Shown in pieces: positions 35,988-41,511 of a stretch of DNA of 42,683 bases. The notes beneath the pieces are model-generated. The model had not been told where the DNA came from. It saw only the letters and a list, made by a program, of their open reading frames with translations, and made no database searches. The position numbers were made by a program, and so were the translations under genes. The DNA lies in contig JAQVGF010000003.1 of NCBI GenBank assembly GCA_028696875.1, positions 1-42,683 on the forward strand. Direction: 5' to 3'. This stretch comes from Dysgonamonadaceae bacterium. Lineage in GTDB: Bacteria > Bacteroidota > Bacteroidia > Bacteroidales > Dysgonomonadaceae. Numbering within the stretch: the stretch's first letter is position 1; each line of letters opens with the position of its first letter.

Positions 35988-36064
35988 TTTATTTTTTGTA
36001 AGATACAGTCGGGCAAAATTAATCATTAAATGGCTAAAATGGGGTAGATCTTTTATGAAATAAG

Positions 36065-36072
36065 CAAATATA
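36065..36072 (-). promoter_or_regulatory. -7 box TATATTTG for the SDR gene
   Basis: Exact TAnnTTTG on the minus strand, 38 bp before ATG 36026 and 77 bp before ATG 35987. Confidence 0.5.
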
Positions 36073-36205
36073 GCTCCAAATGCTCTCCGCCATTAACATC
36101 AAATGTGAAAAAAAAATGAACAATAGCACTTCATCTGCGTTTTTTATTGATTGTACAAACAATAACTAAATGCAGTTGAATTGATTATAAATTGATAAAT
36201 TTTAG

Positions 36206-36213
36206 TTACTTTG
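36206..36213 (+). promoter_or_regulatory. Probable -7 box TTACTTTG for rnr
   Basis: One mismatch to TAnnTTTG, 29 bp before the rnr ATG, with TTG at 36181-36183 as a possible -33 element (22-bp spacer). Confidence 0.4.
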
Positions 36214-36242
36214 CGTTGCTGCAAAACTGAAAAACTAACCAT

Positions 36243-38393
36243 ATGAAAAAGAAAATGAATCCGAATCAATCGGAACCAAAACGTAAGAAAAAAGAATTAG
36301 CATCTGAAATTATTCAATTTTTGAACGATAATCAGAATAATCAATATAACTATAAGCAGATATCTGCAGCCTTGAATGTAACAGATGATAATGAAAGACG
36401 TTCCTTATCAGATGTGCTTGACAAGCTACGTGACGATGAATTGGTGCTGGAGACTTCACGAGGAAGATATAAATCAAACAATCGGAACCCTGTTCTTGAA
36501 GGACGATTTGAACGCAGGAGTAGCGGGAAAAACTTTTTTGTGCCCGACGATGATGGTAACATAATATTTATCTCCGAGCGAAATTCAAAGCATGCAATGA
36601 ATACGGATCGAGTGCGAGTGCAATTATTTGCAAAACGCAAACGTTCTGATACTGAAGGCGAGGTCATTGAGATATTAGAAAGAGCCGAAACTCGTTTTAT
36701 TGGAACCCTTGAGGTTCAAAAACAGTTCGCTTTTTTGGTGTTAGATAGTAGAATATTGGCCAACGATATCTTTATTCCGAAGGAACACTTAAAGGGCGGA
36801 AAAACCGGTGATAAAGTGGTTGTAGAAATTACTGAGTGGCCGGAAAAAGCAAATAATCCCATCGGAAAAGTAGTGGATGTATTGGGTGAAGCAGGAGATA
36901 ATGACACGGAAATGCATGCCATTCTTGCTCAACATAATTTACCTTACCGCTATCCGGAGAATGTAGAAAAAGCTGCTGATAAAATTTCGGCGGTTATTAC
37001 CGATGAGGAAATTCAGAAACGCAAAGATTTGCGCAATCTCTTTACGTTGACCATTGACCCAAGTGATGCAAAGGATTTTGATGATGCTTTGTCACTTAAA
37101 AAACTATCGGAAACCACTTGGGAAGTAGGAGTTCACATTGCCGATGTTACACATTATGTGAAACCTGGAGATATAATCGACACTGAAGCGCAGAAAAGAG
37201 CAACTTCTATTTATTTAGTTGACAGAACTATTCCGATGTTGCCCGAAAGATTAAGCAACGAGTTGTGCTCATTGCGTCCGAACGAGGATAAACTCTGTTT
37301 TTCAGTAATTTTTGAGATGAATGAGAAAGGAGACGTTCTAAATCATCGAATTGACAAAACAGTGATCAACTCCGACCTGCGTTTGTCATACGAAGAGGCA
37401 CAAACGCTTATAGAAACAGAGAAAGGTGATTATAGCAACGAAGTAGGAGTCATGAATAAATTGGCAATTCAATTACGTGAAAAACGCTTTGCCAATGGAG
37501 CCATCAATTTTGAACGTTACGAAGTTCACTTCAATTTGGATGAGAAAGGAAAACCTCTTGGGGTTTATTTTAGTGAGGCAAAAGAGGCCAATCATCTTAT
37601 CGAAGAGTTTATGTTGCTTGCCAACCGTACGGTTGCTGAGGAGATTGGTAAAGTAGGTAAAAACAAAAAAGCAAAAACATTCGTATATCGAATTCACGAT
37701 CTGCCCGATCCGGATAAGTTGGATACGCTCAATACATTTATTACTCGTTTTGGTCATAAAATTAGAACATCGGGCAGTAAAGTGCAGATTGCTAAAAGCA
37801 TAAACTCTTTGTTAGATTCTGTTCAGAATCGCCCGGAAGAAAATTTGGTGGAAACCATTACGATAAAAACAATGGCTAAAGCCGTTTATTCAACCAAAAA
37901 TATTGGTCACTACGGATTGGCATTTGAATACTACTCTCATTTCACATCGCCCATTCGTCGTTATCCCGATATGATGGTTCATCGTTTGCTGAATGACTAT
38001 CTGAATAACGGTAAAAAAAGTGCCGACCAAGAAGAGTACGAAAAACTTTCAAAGCATTGTTCCGATATGGAGTTGGTAGCAGTTCAAGCTGAGCGCGATT
38101 CCATAAAATATAAGCAAGTAGAATTTATGTCCGATAAAATCGGGCGAGTTTACGATGGCGTAATTTCCGGAATTACAGAATGGGGAATTTATGTTGAAAT
38201 AAATGAAAACAAGTGCGAGGGTATGATCCCTATCCGTGAATTAGACGATGACTTTTATGAACTTGACGAAAAAAATTATCGATTGATAGGCAGACGAACC
38301 AAGCGTGAATACCGTTTGGGACAAACGTTACCAATTACAGTGGTTCGTGCAAATTTAGAGAGGAAACAATTGGATTTTGGATTGGCGAAATAG
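36243..38393 (+). CDS. rnr: Ribonuclease R
   Basis: A 716-residue 3'-5' exoribonuclease that degrades structured RNA and takes part in RNA quality control. Domains in order: basic N-terminus and RNase R helix-turn-helix (about 18-75), two cold-shock/OB domains (about 85-215), RNB catalytic domain with the Asp cluster DPSDAKDFDD (272-281), and C-terminal S1 domain (about 635-715, RVYDGVISGITEWGIYVE). Its TAG stop codon forms the left edge of the 34-bp palindrome shared with the convergent transposase. Confidence 0.96.
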   Translation: MKKKMNPNQSEPKRKKKELASEIIQFLNDNQNNQYNYKQISAALNVTDDNERRSLSDVLDKLRDDELVLETSRGRYKSNNRNPVLEGRFERRSSGKNFFVPDDDGNIIFISERNSKHAMNTDRVRVQLFAKRKRSDTEGEVIEILERAETRFIGTLEVQKQFAFLVLDSRILANDIFIPKEHLKGGKTGDKVVVEITEWPEKANNPIGKVVDVLGEAGDNDTEMHAILAQHNLPYRYPENVEKAADKISAVITDEEIQKRKDLRNLFTLTIDPSDAKDFDDALSLKKLSETTWEVGVHIADVTHYVKPGDIIDTEAQKRATSIYLVDRTIPMLPERLSNELCSLRPNEDKLCFSVIFEMNEKGDVLNHRIDKTVINSDLRLSYEEAQTLIETEKGDYSNEVGVMNKLAIQLREKRFANGAINFERYEVHFNLDEKGKPLGVYFSEAKEANHLIEEFMLLANRTVAEEIGKVGKNKKAKTFVYRIHDLPDPDKLDTLNTFITRFGHKIRTSGSKVQIAKSINSLLDSVQNRPEENLVETITIKTMAKAVYSTKNIGHYGLAFEYYSHFTSPIRRYPDMMVHRLLNDYLNNGKKSADQEEYEKLSKHCSDMELVAVQAERDSIKYKQVEFMSDKIGRVYDGVISGITEWGIYVEINENKCEGMIPIRELDDDFYELDEKNYRLIGRRTKREYRLGQTLPITVVRANLERKQLDFGLAK

Positions 38394-38424
38394 GTAGAGA
38401 GAATTCATGAATTCTCTCTACCTA
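38391..38424. repeat. 34-bp perfect palindrome at rnr/RAYT convergence
   Basis: Perfect dyad centred at 38407/38408, with half-site GTAGAGAGAATTCA (from 38394) and outer TAG/CTA. It contains the rnr stop (38391-38393) and the transposase stop (38418-38420). It has the shape of a REP recognised by the adjacent RAYT; as RNA it could end both transcripts, although it lacks a T-run. Confidence 0.85.
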
Positions 38425-39032
38425 AACGTATCCCCATCCCAATTTTTAGGGTTGTTAATAATATAATTTTTAATACGATGATATGATTCAACGTCACGGA
38501 TAATATGATCGTAGTAATTCGTTTGCCAATTTTTTATACCCGGTGTGTTTCGTTTAATATTTATCTGTTTTGATGTTATCATCTCCAGTTTCCCAACCAT
38601 TTTTGGTATTATCATTTGTCTGCGTTGTTTGCGGTATTGTTTTATTTCGCCGATGGTGGGTTTATAGTTGGGATTGTGCCACCATTGGTGTTTTGATGGT
38701 TGCGGTGGTGTTTGTTGTGACCGCTGTAGAGAAAATTCATGAATTTTCTTTACCTGAATTCTCTCTACATCAATTCCCCCTACATCGGATTCATCCCTAC
38801 CATCATCCGTCAATTCAATTAACAAATGAATATGATTTGGCATCACAACCCATTCATCGATAATTGCACGAATATGGTAATCATTCATTTTTATGATTTC
38901 ATTTTTCACAATTTCGCCATAGTCAGACAATATCATCACCCCATTTTTAATATTTCCCAAAATACATTCTCTATTTTCCACACAAATGGTAATAAAATAG
39001 TGTCCGTTTGCAGAATAATCCCAATACTGCAA
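38418..39032 (-). CDS. REP-associated tyrosine transposase (RAYT, IS200-like Y1)
   Basis: 204 residues from a TTG at 39032, though the true 5' end is probably displaced by a frameshift (see 39033-39076). It is a Y1/HUH single-strand DNA transposase: NGHYFITICVENREC at the start, HUH motif HIH (67-69) in MPNHIHLLIEL, catalytic Tyr in NYYDHIIRD (173/174), and the C-terminal signature RIKNYIINNPKNW. RAYT proteins bind and cut REP hairpins and are usually single-copy, not classic IS elements. Residues about 78-113 form a low-complexity insert, partly encoded by tandem copies of the REP half-unit. The gene is convergent with rnr and abuts the GT2 gene. The frame is otherwise intact from 39032 to the stop. 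Confidence 0.9.
   Translation of the reverse strand: MQYWDYSANGHYFITICVENRECILGNIKNGVMILSDYGEIVKNEIIKMNDYHIRAIIDEWVVMPNHIHLLIELTDDGRDESDVGGIDVERIQVKKIHEFSLQRSQQTPPQPSKHQWWHNPNYKPTIGEIKQYRKQRRQMIIPKMVGKLEMITSKQINIKRNTPGIKNWQTNYYDHIIRDVESYHRIKNYIINNPKNWDGDTFR
38726..38783. repeat. REP half-units inside the RAYT coding sequence
   Basis: On the minus strand three tandem 15-bp units follow each other: GTAGGGGGAATTGAT (38769-38783), GTAGAGAGAATTCAG (38754-38768), GTAAAGAAAATTCAT (38739-38753), then an inverted unit (38726-38740) makes a 28-bp palindrome with one mismatch pair. In protein they read VGGID, VERIQ, VKKIH. A fourth, 17-bp degenerate unit lies at 38784-38800. Confidence 0.85.
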
Positions 39033-39076
39033 TCGGTTTGATTCAATCCGATATCTATTGTTGAATTTTTAGTCAT
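39033..39076 (-). other. Displaced 5' end of the RAYT gene (probable one-base frameshift)
   Basis: The transposase frame continues upstream of 39032 as NRYRIESNRL, a sequence typical of RAYT N-termini, but meets a stop instead of an ATG. An ATG at 39076-39074 lies in another frame; adding one A to the A5 tract (39066-39070, T on the plus strand) would join it: MTKKFNNRYRIESNRLQY. The ATG overlaps the GT2 stop as ATGA. Confidence 0.7.
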
Positions 39077-39996
39077 TGTTTGGTTGTTTGCGTTGTCAAA
39101 TAATTCGCCCTCGCCACTTTCGTTTTCTTTCTTGTTGCATTCGCCATAGGAACTTTCCCCAACAACTTAAAAGCCATCTTCAAATACGCTCCCGAATTTG
39201 AAAATCTTCCACCAAACCCTTCAATAAACATCTTCTTTATGGCAGCCAGCACACTGTAAGCTATCGCTTTTGAGAAGCTGTAGTTGATATTTGCCAATTC
39301 GCTCAAGAAATAGACATATTCGGCATAGAGAAATTCTTTGTTAGTTACCTTTCTGTTTTGTCTGTCGTGCGTAGCAAAAGCGTTTGGCAGATATCCAATT
39401 TTGAAGTTATGAAAATGAGTGCGCTGAATGTAGTTTCTGTCTTCTCCATAATGATAGAACAGGGGACTAAATCCGCCAATCTTTTTGACAACTGCAATTG
39501 GGAGCAACCAAAAAGCAGCATTCACAAAGGGTAATTCAACTAAGAGAGGTGATATTTGCACTATTTCATCGAGAGTTTTCTTGTTGGAATAGTTGGCAAA
39601 GCCATGATCGAGTGATGTACCATCCGATGAGAGATGAACCGGGGAAATAATTCCGAATTCTGAATTTGTCTCCGAAGCAATTATAAGTTTTTCCAACATA
39701 TCTTTTTCAATCCAAGTATCCTGATTCAGTAAAAAAATATAATCGAAACCTTTATCTAATGCATACTTAAAGCCGATATTATTGGCTTTTCCAAAGCCAA
39801 GGTTATCCTTGTTTTCAATCAAGATTACTTGTGGGAAGTCTTTTTGTACTCTTTCAACTGTCTTGTCATTAGAATTATTGTCAATAACGAGCACAGTGGA
39901 AGGAATTGTTGAAGCAAATACCGCCGGCAGGCACTTGTCAATCCACGGTTCAAAATTGTAAGAGACAATAATTACACAAACTTTTTTATTCTTCAT
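39073..39996 (-). CDS. Family 2 glycosyltransferase
   Basis: A 307-residue GT-A (GT2) glycosyltransferase: CVIIVSYNFEPWIDKCL at the N-terminus, VLVIDNNSNDKT (UDP-sugar site), ANNIGFKYAL and the metal-binding region FLLNQDTWIE. Rhamnosyl- or galactofuranosyl-transferases have this type of pattern, but the donor is not evident. The N-terminal ATG at 39996 overlaps the flippase stop by 11 bp, indicating co-translation. Together they are probably part of a surface polysaccharide pathway. Confidence 0.9.
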   Translation of the reverse strand: MKNKKVCVIIVSYNFEPWIDKCLPAVFASTIPSTVLVIDNNSNDKTVERVQKDFPQVILIENKDNLGFGKANNIGFKYALDKGFDYIFLLNQDTWIEKDMLEKLIIASETNSEFGIISPVHLSSDGTSLDHGFANYSNKKTLDEIVQISPLLVELPFVNAAFWLLPIAVVKKIGGFSPLFYHYGEDRNYIQRTHFHNFKIGYLPNAFATHDRQNRKVTNKEFLYAEYVYFLSELANINYSFSKAIAYSVLAAIKKMFIEGFGGRFSNSGAYLKMAFKLLGKVPMANATRKKTKVARANYLTTQTTKQ

Positions 39997-41449
39997 TATC
40001 ACTGTTTTTTGGTCTTTTTGAAGCAATAAATTGATTAATCTCTGTAGTCATTTCTAAGTTAAACACTCTGCACAAGATTAAATAGACAGCTCCCATTACT
40101 GCCATTGCGGCTAACATTTGCAAAAAACCATTTGATATTTGATAGGATGCAAAATAGGCAGCCAACACCGCCACAAGTGAAAGAGTTACATAAGGAATAA
40201 CATCTCTAATGAAATTCCAAAGAGAGTAGGCAATCAGTTTTTTGGATAGAAATAGCGAAATGATTAATGTGATGTACATGTAAACCACCCAACTCACAGC
40301 CAAACCGGCAATGCCTTGTTTGAAAAATGCGATAATCAGTGCGATTAGGATGATGCGCTTTACAATCTCTACGCTCAAAAAGAAATCGGCTCTCTCTTTG
40401 GCAATAAACAATTCGTTGAGTATAAAAGTAAAAGGTGACACAGCACCACCCAAGCATAATATCTGAAAATAGGGAACAGATGGTAACCACTTTTCACCGA
40501 ATACATTTACAAAAAGAGGTTCGGCAATCAATATTAAGATAACTGCAATGGGGAACGACAAAAATGACATCGTTTTCATTAGTTTTGCTACCACTCGATG
40601 CAATCGTTCGGTTTGTTGATTTATCTCTGAAAGAATAAGCATAGATACCGAACGGAAAGTATCGGAAAGAACGGCAAATGGAGTATCTTGATATTTGTAT
40701 GCTTGTGTATAAAACCCAACTTGTTGCATGGGATAAAACATGGCAATGACACTGGGGTAGATGTTGTTGAAAATGGCGCCTATTGCTCCCGAAGCCAATA
40801 GCTTATTGCTGAAAGCAAAGAATGTTTTTAGTTTGGACATTTTGAAAATCCATTTGGGTCGCCAAGGTGAATAAAGCCACAAAAATAGACTTCTGAAAAA
40901 AGCATATATTACATTTTGTGCAACCAGCGACCACACACCGAATCCTTTCCAAGCCATGATAAGGGCAATTGCGGTTGAGATAACCAGCGCAGAGGTGTTT
41001 GCTTTGGTCTGGGTTTTGAAATCGGATGCTTTGGTAAAGATTACCGTTTGAATCACGCTAAGCCCATTGAATAGGAGAGAAAGGAAAAGCACTCTGGAAA
41101 CAGGAATGAGCATTGGCTCATGGAATAGTTGGGCAATTAATGGTGCAGAAAGAAAGAGTGCTATATATAGAAATGCACTAATGGCAAGATTGAAATAAAA
41201 AACAGTGCTGTATTCAACTGCGCTGATATGTTTTCGATTGAGCAATGCACGCCCAAACCCACTGTCGATTAATAGCGATGAAATGGCGGTGAAAATGAGC
41301 AGTGATCCCATAATTCCATATGCCGAAATATCCAACAAACGCATTAGAAATACACTGCTAATCAGGAAAATAAGTTTCTGACCAAACTTATCTAGAAAAC
41401 TCCAAAAAAGTGCGGTGACAGTTCTTTTCTTAAGTGTTGAATCAGGCAT
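39986..41449 (-). CDS. Oligosaccharide flippase (Wzx/MOP, Polysacc_synt family)
   Basis: A 487-residue membrane protein with about 12-14 helices of the MOP superfamily: WSFLDKFGQKLIFLISSVFLMRLL, AYGIMGSLLIFTAISSLLIDSGFGRALLNRKH and GFYTQAYKYQDTP are typical of LPS/O-antigen type flippases (WzxC-like). It likely moves lipid-linked sugar units over the inner membrane. It heads the short operon with the GT2 gene; a good -7 box about 185 bp upstream predicts a leader of about 175 nt that includes repeat hairpins. Confidence 0.92.
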   Translation of the reverse strand: MPDSTLKKRTVTALFWSFLDKFGQKLIFLISSVFLMRLLDISAYGIMGSLLIFTAISSLLIDSGFGRALLNRKHISAVEYSTVFYFNLAISAFLYIALFLSAPLIAQLFHEPMLIPVSRVLFLSLLFNGLSVIQTVIFTKASDFKTQTKANTSALVISTAIALIMAWKGFGVWSLVAQNVIYAFFRSLFLWLYSPWRPKWIFKMSKLKTFFAFSNKLLASGAIGAIFNNIYPSVIAMFYPMQQVGFYTQAYKYQDTPFAVLSDTFRSVSMLILSEINQQTERLHRVVAKLMKTMSFLSFPIAVILILIAEPLFVNVFGEKWLPSVPYFQILCLGGAVSPFTFILNELFIAKERADFFLSVEIVKRIILIALIIAFFKQGIAGLAVSWVVYMYITLIISLFLSKKLIAYSLWNFIRDVIPYVTLSLVAVLAAYFASYQISNGFLQMLAAMAVMGAVYLILCRVFNLEMTTEINQFIASKRPKNSDNEE

Positions 41450-41511
41450 CTGAGACTGTTTCTAATTTAAATTATGTGTCCACTCTGAAAAATCTATTTC
41501 TATGTCTTACG

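Follow-up and report, generated by a model that had tools for sequence, protein, structure and literature searches.

Why should a transposase gene carry, within its own reading frame, units of the palindrome that stands at its 3' end? The question is raised by a locus near the end of the window (the whole stretch of DNA analyzed here, 42,683 nucleotides long), where an exoribonuclease gene faces a smaller ORF in convergent orientation.

36243-38393, plus strand: rnr-like exoribonuclease gene
38391-38424, no strand assigned: perfect 34-bp terminal palindrome, between the rnr-like gene and the RAYT gene
38418-39032, minus strand: RAYT / TnpA-REP gene body, 204 aa from a TTG (open frame 216 aa)

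The smaller ORF is a RAYT gene, as a preliminary description of this DNA had proposed; the Pfam, NCBIfam, and PDB sequence and fold matches agree on this. It matches Y1_Tnp (PF01797, E=1.5e-5) and, with 60 bits against a curated cut-off of 80, the NCBIfam REP-associated tyrosine transposase family NF047646 (E=1.8e-16), which was the sole family matched by all 31 aligned homologues (E up to 0.001); the E. coli RAYT-REP complex 4er8 was both the sole match in a PDB sequence search and the top-ranking fold for the model. The NF047646 match is split into two stretches, perhaps by the loop. The HUH motif NHIH lies at residues 66-69, WQ at 169-170 and the Tyr motif YIINNP at 190-195. An AlphaFold2 model built from 31 homologues (mean pLDDT 81) is mostly above 90, with values below 50 at residues 79-96, 98-112 and 115-120, covering the REP-encoded stretch; this low-confidence insert falls between strand E67-74 and helix H127-137, and the loop is predicted by the model to be disordered, tolerant and apart from the catalytic core.

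The terminal palindrome, TAG-GTAGAGAGAATTCATGAATTCTCTCTAC-CTA, proved perfect over all 34 bp, as claimed, and consists of a 28-bp double-foot GTAG..CTAC REP (38394-38421) plus 3 bp on each side. Both convergent stop codons lie inside it (the rnr TAG at 38391-38393, the RAYT TAG at 38420-38418). Such 34-bp palindromes are expected by chance about 7e-6 times in the whole window. The folding energy of this one is -21.5 kcal/mol for both strands (z-scores of -6.4 and -7.8). No match to Rfam was obtained in a scan of 36000-41500.

In the part of the gene that separates the HUH motif from the Tyr motif, relatives of the terminal half-unit stand in a row (given here 5' to 3' on the minus strand).

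38784-38800, minus strand: degraded half-unit GTAGGGATGAATCCGAT, 17 bp, read in another frame (GRDESD)
38769-38783, minus strand: tandem half-unit GTAGGGGGAATTGAT, 15 bp, encoding VGGID
38754-38768, minus strand: tandem half-unit GTAGAGAGAATTCAG, 15 bp, encoding VERIQ
38726-38753, minus strand: internal double-foot REP GTAAAGAAAATTCATGAATTTTCTCTAC, composed of GTAAAGAAAATTCAT and GAATTTTCTCTAC, 28 bp, encoding VKKIHEFSL

The preliminary description had reported three tandem 15-bp units (VGGID, VERIQ, VKKIH) with an inverted unit that rebuilds a 28-bp palindrome, and an adjacent degraded 17-bp unit; coordinates and sequences of the former were confirmed, and the latter is present, though it is the weakest part of the array and its resemblance is possibly due to chance. 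The arms of the internal palindrome pair at 13 of 14 positions. The three 15-mers are alike at 10-12 of 15 bases among themselves and at 12-14 of 15 when compared with the terminal half-unit; the one at 38768-38754 agrees with the terminal half-unit at 14 of 15 bases and with its neighbor at 12, and would be able to pair with the inverted half in its neighbor's place. The array is real and well above chance: its period-15 score was reached by none of 300 codon-shuffled genes. The mRNA folded better than all 200 shuffles, and a palindrome score of 11 was reached in 1 of 60 synonymous resamplings of this gene's loop.

The same arrangement is common among relatives. We collected 71 distinct ORFs with both motifs from genome collections, and 43 of them (this gene and 42 of the 70 others) carry, between HUH and Tyr, a 28-bp GTAG..CTAC palindrome whose arms pair at 12 or more of 14 positions. 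The arms are perfect (14/14) in 31 of these 43 carriers; the palindrome starts in the same codon frame in 40, 28 bp not being a multiple of three, and in all 43 it lies 10-41 residues after HUH, while the HUH-to-Y spacing differs widely among homologues. The remaining 28 homologues (about 40%) have no GTAG-type internal palindrome. A best palindrome score of at least 11 was found in 43/71 loops vs. 0/71 N-terminal parts, which served as a control, and synonymously resampled loops of carriers seldom reach 11. These two controls are relied upon in place of a pair-covariation count, which was set aside as largely circular, the palindromes having been picked as palindromic. The palindrome cores vary among homologues (AATTCATGAATT, GGCATGCC, ACGGCCGT, GCAAAATTTTGC and others).

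Some loops have further peculiarities. In four (L084, L130, L044 and L098) the palindrome is longer than the 28-bp REP by up to 10 bp at either end, which gives the impression that an inverted arm has taken up a copy of the adjoining sequence; four others without a GTAG REP (L083, L096, L132 and L055) have palindromes of the GGGCGAATTGCATTCGCCC kind instead, which in L083 form a ladder of ELHSPDNSN repeats. L101 (G155:C89) has a pair of RAYT copies separated by about 2.1 kb, and ladders of GCAAAGAAAATTCACGAATTTTCTCGTAATATTGATGACAAT repeats flank both of them.

The preliminary description also held that the array could change without breaking the frame, and relatives do differ by in-frame half-unit steps: extra half-units, with no more than one mismatch and offset by multiples of three, occur in about 10 other RAYTs (L054, L061, L073, L074, L075, L082, L090, L094, L117 and L119), and some homologues repeat the same half-unit exactly. 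L074 and L075 are identical at 597 of 624 aligned bases (96% in DNA), with arrays running left-right-right in the former and left-left-right in the latter, so that one half-unit, the middle one, has been flipped; L054 and L061 differ in both the number and the orientation of their half-units. Template switching at inverted repeats is described as homogenizing arms and inverting the spacer (PMC8604942, alongside which we cite PMC8794818, on hairpins) and would be the simplest account of this turnover, with processing by the RAYT as the alternative.

To follow the palindromes through the family we built a RAYT protein tree without the loop (125 columns, with many unresolved forks). A single branch sets the carriers of the AATTCATGAATT core apart from all others (1 change vs. 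9.6 when shuffled), and all core types jointly need 15 changes vs. 40 shuffled; judged from these sequences, the core tracks RAYT phylogeny. Of the 11 genomes picked for having this RAYT clade, one of them the window's own, 10 contain REPs with this core (up to three mismatches), as do 2 out of another 3 from the same genus as the window; the 13 genomes taken for comparison, many of them with other types, contain none. A single copy lies inside a RAYT gene in G300, G289, G373, G428 and G301, and both copies do so in G384; no copies outside RAYT genes were detected in six related draft genomes, which may miss copies. The preliminary description had named homologues with the same residues in non-palindromic codons as evidence against its view; what we found is that codons are shared: within the clade, residues in common use the same codon 91% of the time inside the REP vs. 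60% outside it (a descriptive figure, as pairs are not independent).

In the window's own genome, the expectation of further half-unit copies held in part: the exact half-unit GTAGAGAGAATTCAT has no further occurrence in the 2.35-Mb draft, and the complete 28-bp palindrome has near-copies at C179:1818, C95:7393 and C124:10250, as well as at C38:6927 in a second, decayed RAYT. With up to three mismatches there are six 28-bp matches, two within RAYT genes, one at the end of the window's RAYT and three dispersed. These counts rest on 28-bp patterns with mismatches, for which all controls were zero; they replaced a loose GTAGRG..CYCTAC pattern, dropped when its total count was no better than that of a reversed control. 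The sequence in question is this RAYT's REP family, and the terminal REP and the few dispersed copies are probably ordinary members of it; there are so few of the latter that present-day spreading by this RAYT is doubtful. A different REP type, with GTAGAGACG..CGTCTCTAC-type palindromes, is found in the same genome (G000) at C3:121-148 and C188:3337-3365 (L066, L067).

The state of this copy also has to be considered.

39066-39076, minus strand: expected RAYT start, with an ATG at 39076-39074 followed by an A5 run (N-termini compared with L070-L073 and L087)

This ATG, which the compared sequences suggest is probably the true start, overlaps the stop codon of the upstream glycosyltransferase gene (ATGA) and is one base off the frame of the RAYT body, and the conserved N-terminal stretch can be reached in the shifted frame only. 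The off-frame start reflects either a new break, an assembly error, or slippage on the A5 run that joins the frames. Apart from the window gene, a search of the genome for RAYTs returned just one, the decayed copy (C38:6927-7215, L062), whose loop region likewise carries this REP (GTGGAGAAAATTCATGTATTTTCTCTAC). Decay may be under way in the window copy as well; with a start that looks frameshifted and a decayed paralogue, it may not encode an active enzyme.

We consider it likely that this is a subclass-2.4 type RAYT (a REPtron) and that its cognate double-foot REP has long resided in its own disordered loop, with arms kept matched, co-evolving with the enzyme. An insert confined to one loop, in nearly one frame, lineage-specific, and in several genomes without a detected copy outside RAYT genes, argues for long residence over repeated accidents. 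On this account, which draws on common position, frame and phylogeny, the protein would tolerate the REP because the loop is predicted to lie outside the catalytic core. The palindrome would form hairpins in single-stranded DNA, and template switching during replication, or nicking by the RAYT at GTAG, may keep the arms matched and may also duplicate, delete and flip half-units; only those changes whose length is divisible by three would survive, giving rise to tandem 15-bp arrays. The 3'-end REP and the dispersed copies were probably spread by the RAYT, to judge from the literature on the E. coli enzyme. With one gene specifying both enzyme and substrate, the loop of such a RAYT should allow its cognate REP to be predicted.

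The preliminary description had offered, as one of two readings, self-insertion of REP units into a tolerant loop. The tolerant part fares well (the loop is predicted to be disordered, and relatives differ by in-frame half-unit steps). Recent neutral insertion, in which a genomic pool supplies the jumping REPs and the RAYT loop simply counts among the few in-gene sites tolerating an in-frame insert, would fit with the in-frame intragenic REPs described in other genes (PMC3733652) and in subclass 2.4 RAYTs (PMC6006769), and with the half-unit that is nearer to the terminal REP than to its neighbor; we nonetheless think it unlikely, given the single frame in 40/43 genes for an insert of 28 bp, a core type that tracks RAYT phylogeny, and the six genomes in which no REP was detected outside RAYT genes.

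Autoregulation, with the RAYT binding its own internal REP as single-stranded DNA or mRNA to limit expression or copy number, and the palindrome under selection, is compatible with the resident-REP view and is a possibility to which we give a low probability. It would account for DNA conserved beyond the protein level, for arms so frequently perfect among carriers and for mRNA folding that beats every shuffle, and it has an analogy in the E. coli RAYT, which is reported to bind and cleave its REP (PMC3733652). However, template-switch correction could keep palindromes perfect without selection, the GTAG palindrome is missing from 28/71 RAYTs, and the site is mid-gene, away from start or promoter. 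Selection and mere upkeep by replication errors could be distinguished through synonymous changes to the palindrome. A bolder version, in which the internal REP serves the enzyme as master copy and also as regulatory site, keeping enzyme and target always together as they travel, and a flipping, growing in-frame array of half-units tunes binding or expression, we regard as rather improbable. Finally, we reject protein-level repeats or chance unrelated to REPs as a highly improbable reading: the upstream units are indeed weaker (the VGGID unit and the degraded 17-bp unit), but the codon shuffles, the synonymous resampling (which the palindrome beats in most genes) and the N-terminal controls, together with half-units repeated exactly and codons shared in homologues, all speak against it.

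How does this gene compare with known systems? TnpA-REP/RAYT genes of subclass 2.4, from Bacteroidetes and Cyanobacteria, are described as carrying REPs in frame between HUH and Tyr, some of them GTAG...CTAC "double-foot" REPs (Quentin et al., 2018, PMC6006769). REPs in a tolerant RAYT loop are thus already published there, and this gene is a further example, to which we add information on the residence of the REP, its co-evolution with the enzyme and the turnover of half-units. It has all of the subclass features assessed (motifs, REP and insert site): the NH[IFV]H form of HUH, WQ and YIxNNP, a double-foot REP (5' GTAG, 3' CTAC), an in-frame REP between HUH and Y, and a length-variable insert between beta3 and alphaC, seen here as the low-confidence insert of the model and the variable HUH-to-Y distance. 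The length of about 200 aa, the short repeats in the variable loop and the Bacteroidales-type relatives likewise resemble subclass 2.4 (Bertels group 4), whereas the tandem half-unit array on the internal copy, the few dispersed REPs and the frameshifted-looking start differ from the subclass as described in that source.

The E. coli RAYT/REP system (REPtron; 4er8) shares the HUH/Tyr fold and a GTAG-tagged REP beside the gene; unlike the gene studied here, the E. coli RAYT belongs to subclass 2.2, for which the account in PMC6006769 describes long, often bulged REPs, and which is not reported to have any within its genes. Intragenic GTAG REPs are known more broadly (Di Nocera et al., 2013, PMC3733652), and these, like the Rickettsia palindromic elements (RPE), are palindromic repeats translated in frame within a protein gene. 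Those repeats are sited in unrelated host genes, whereas here the gene that bears the repeat encodes its presumed processor.
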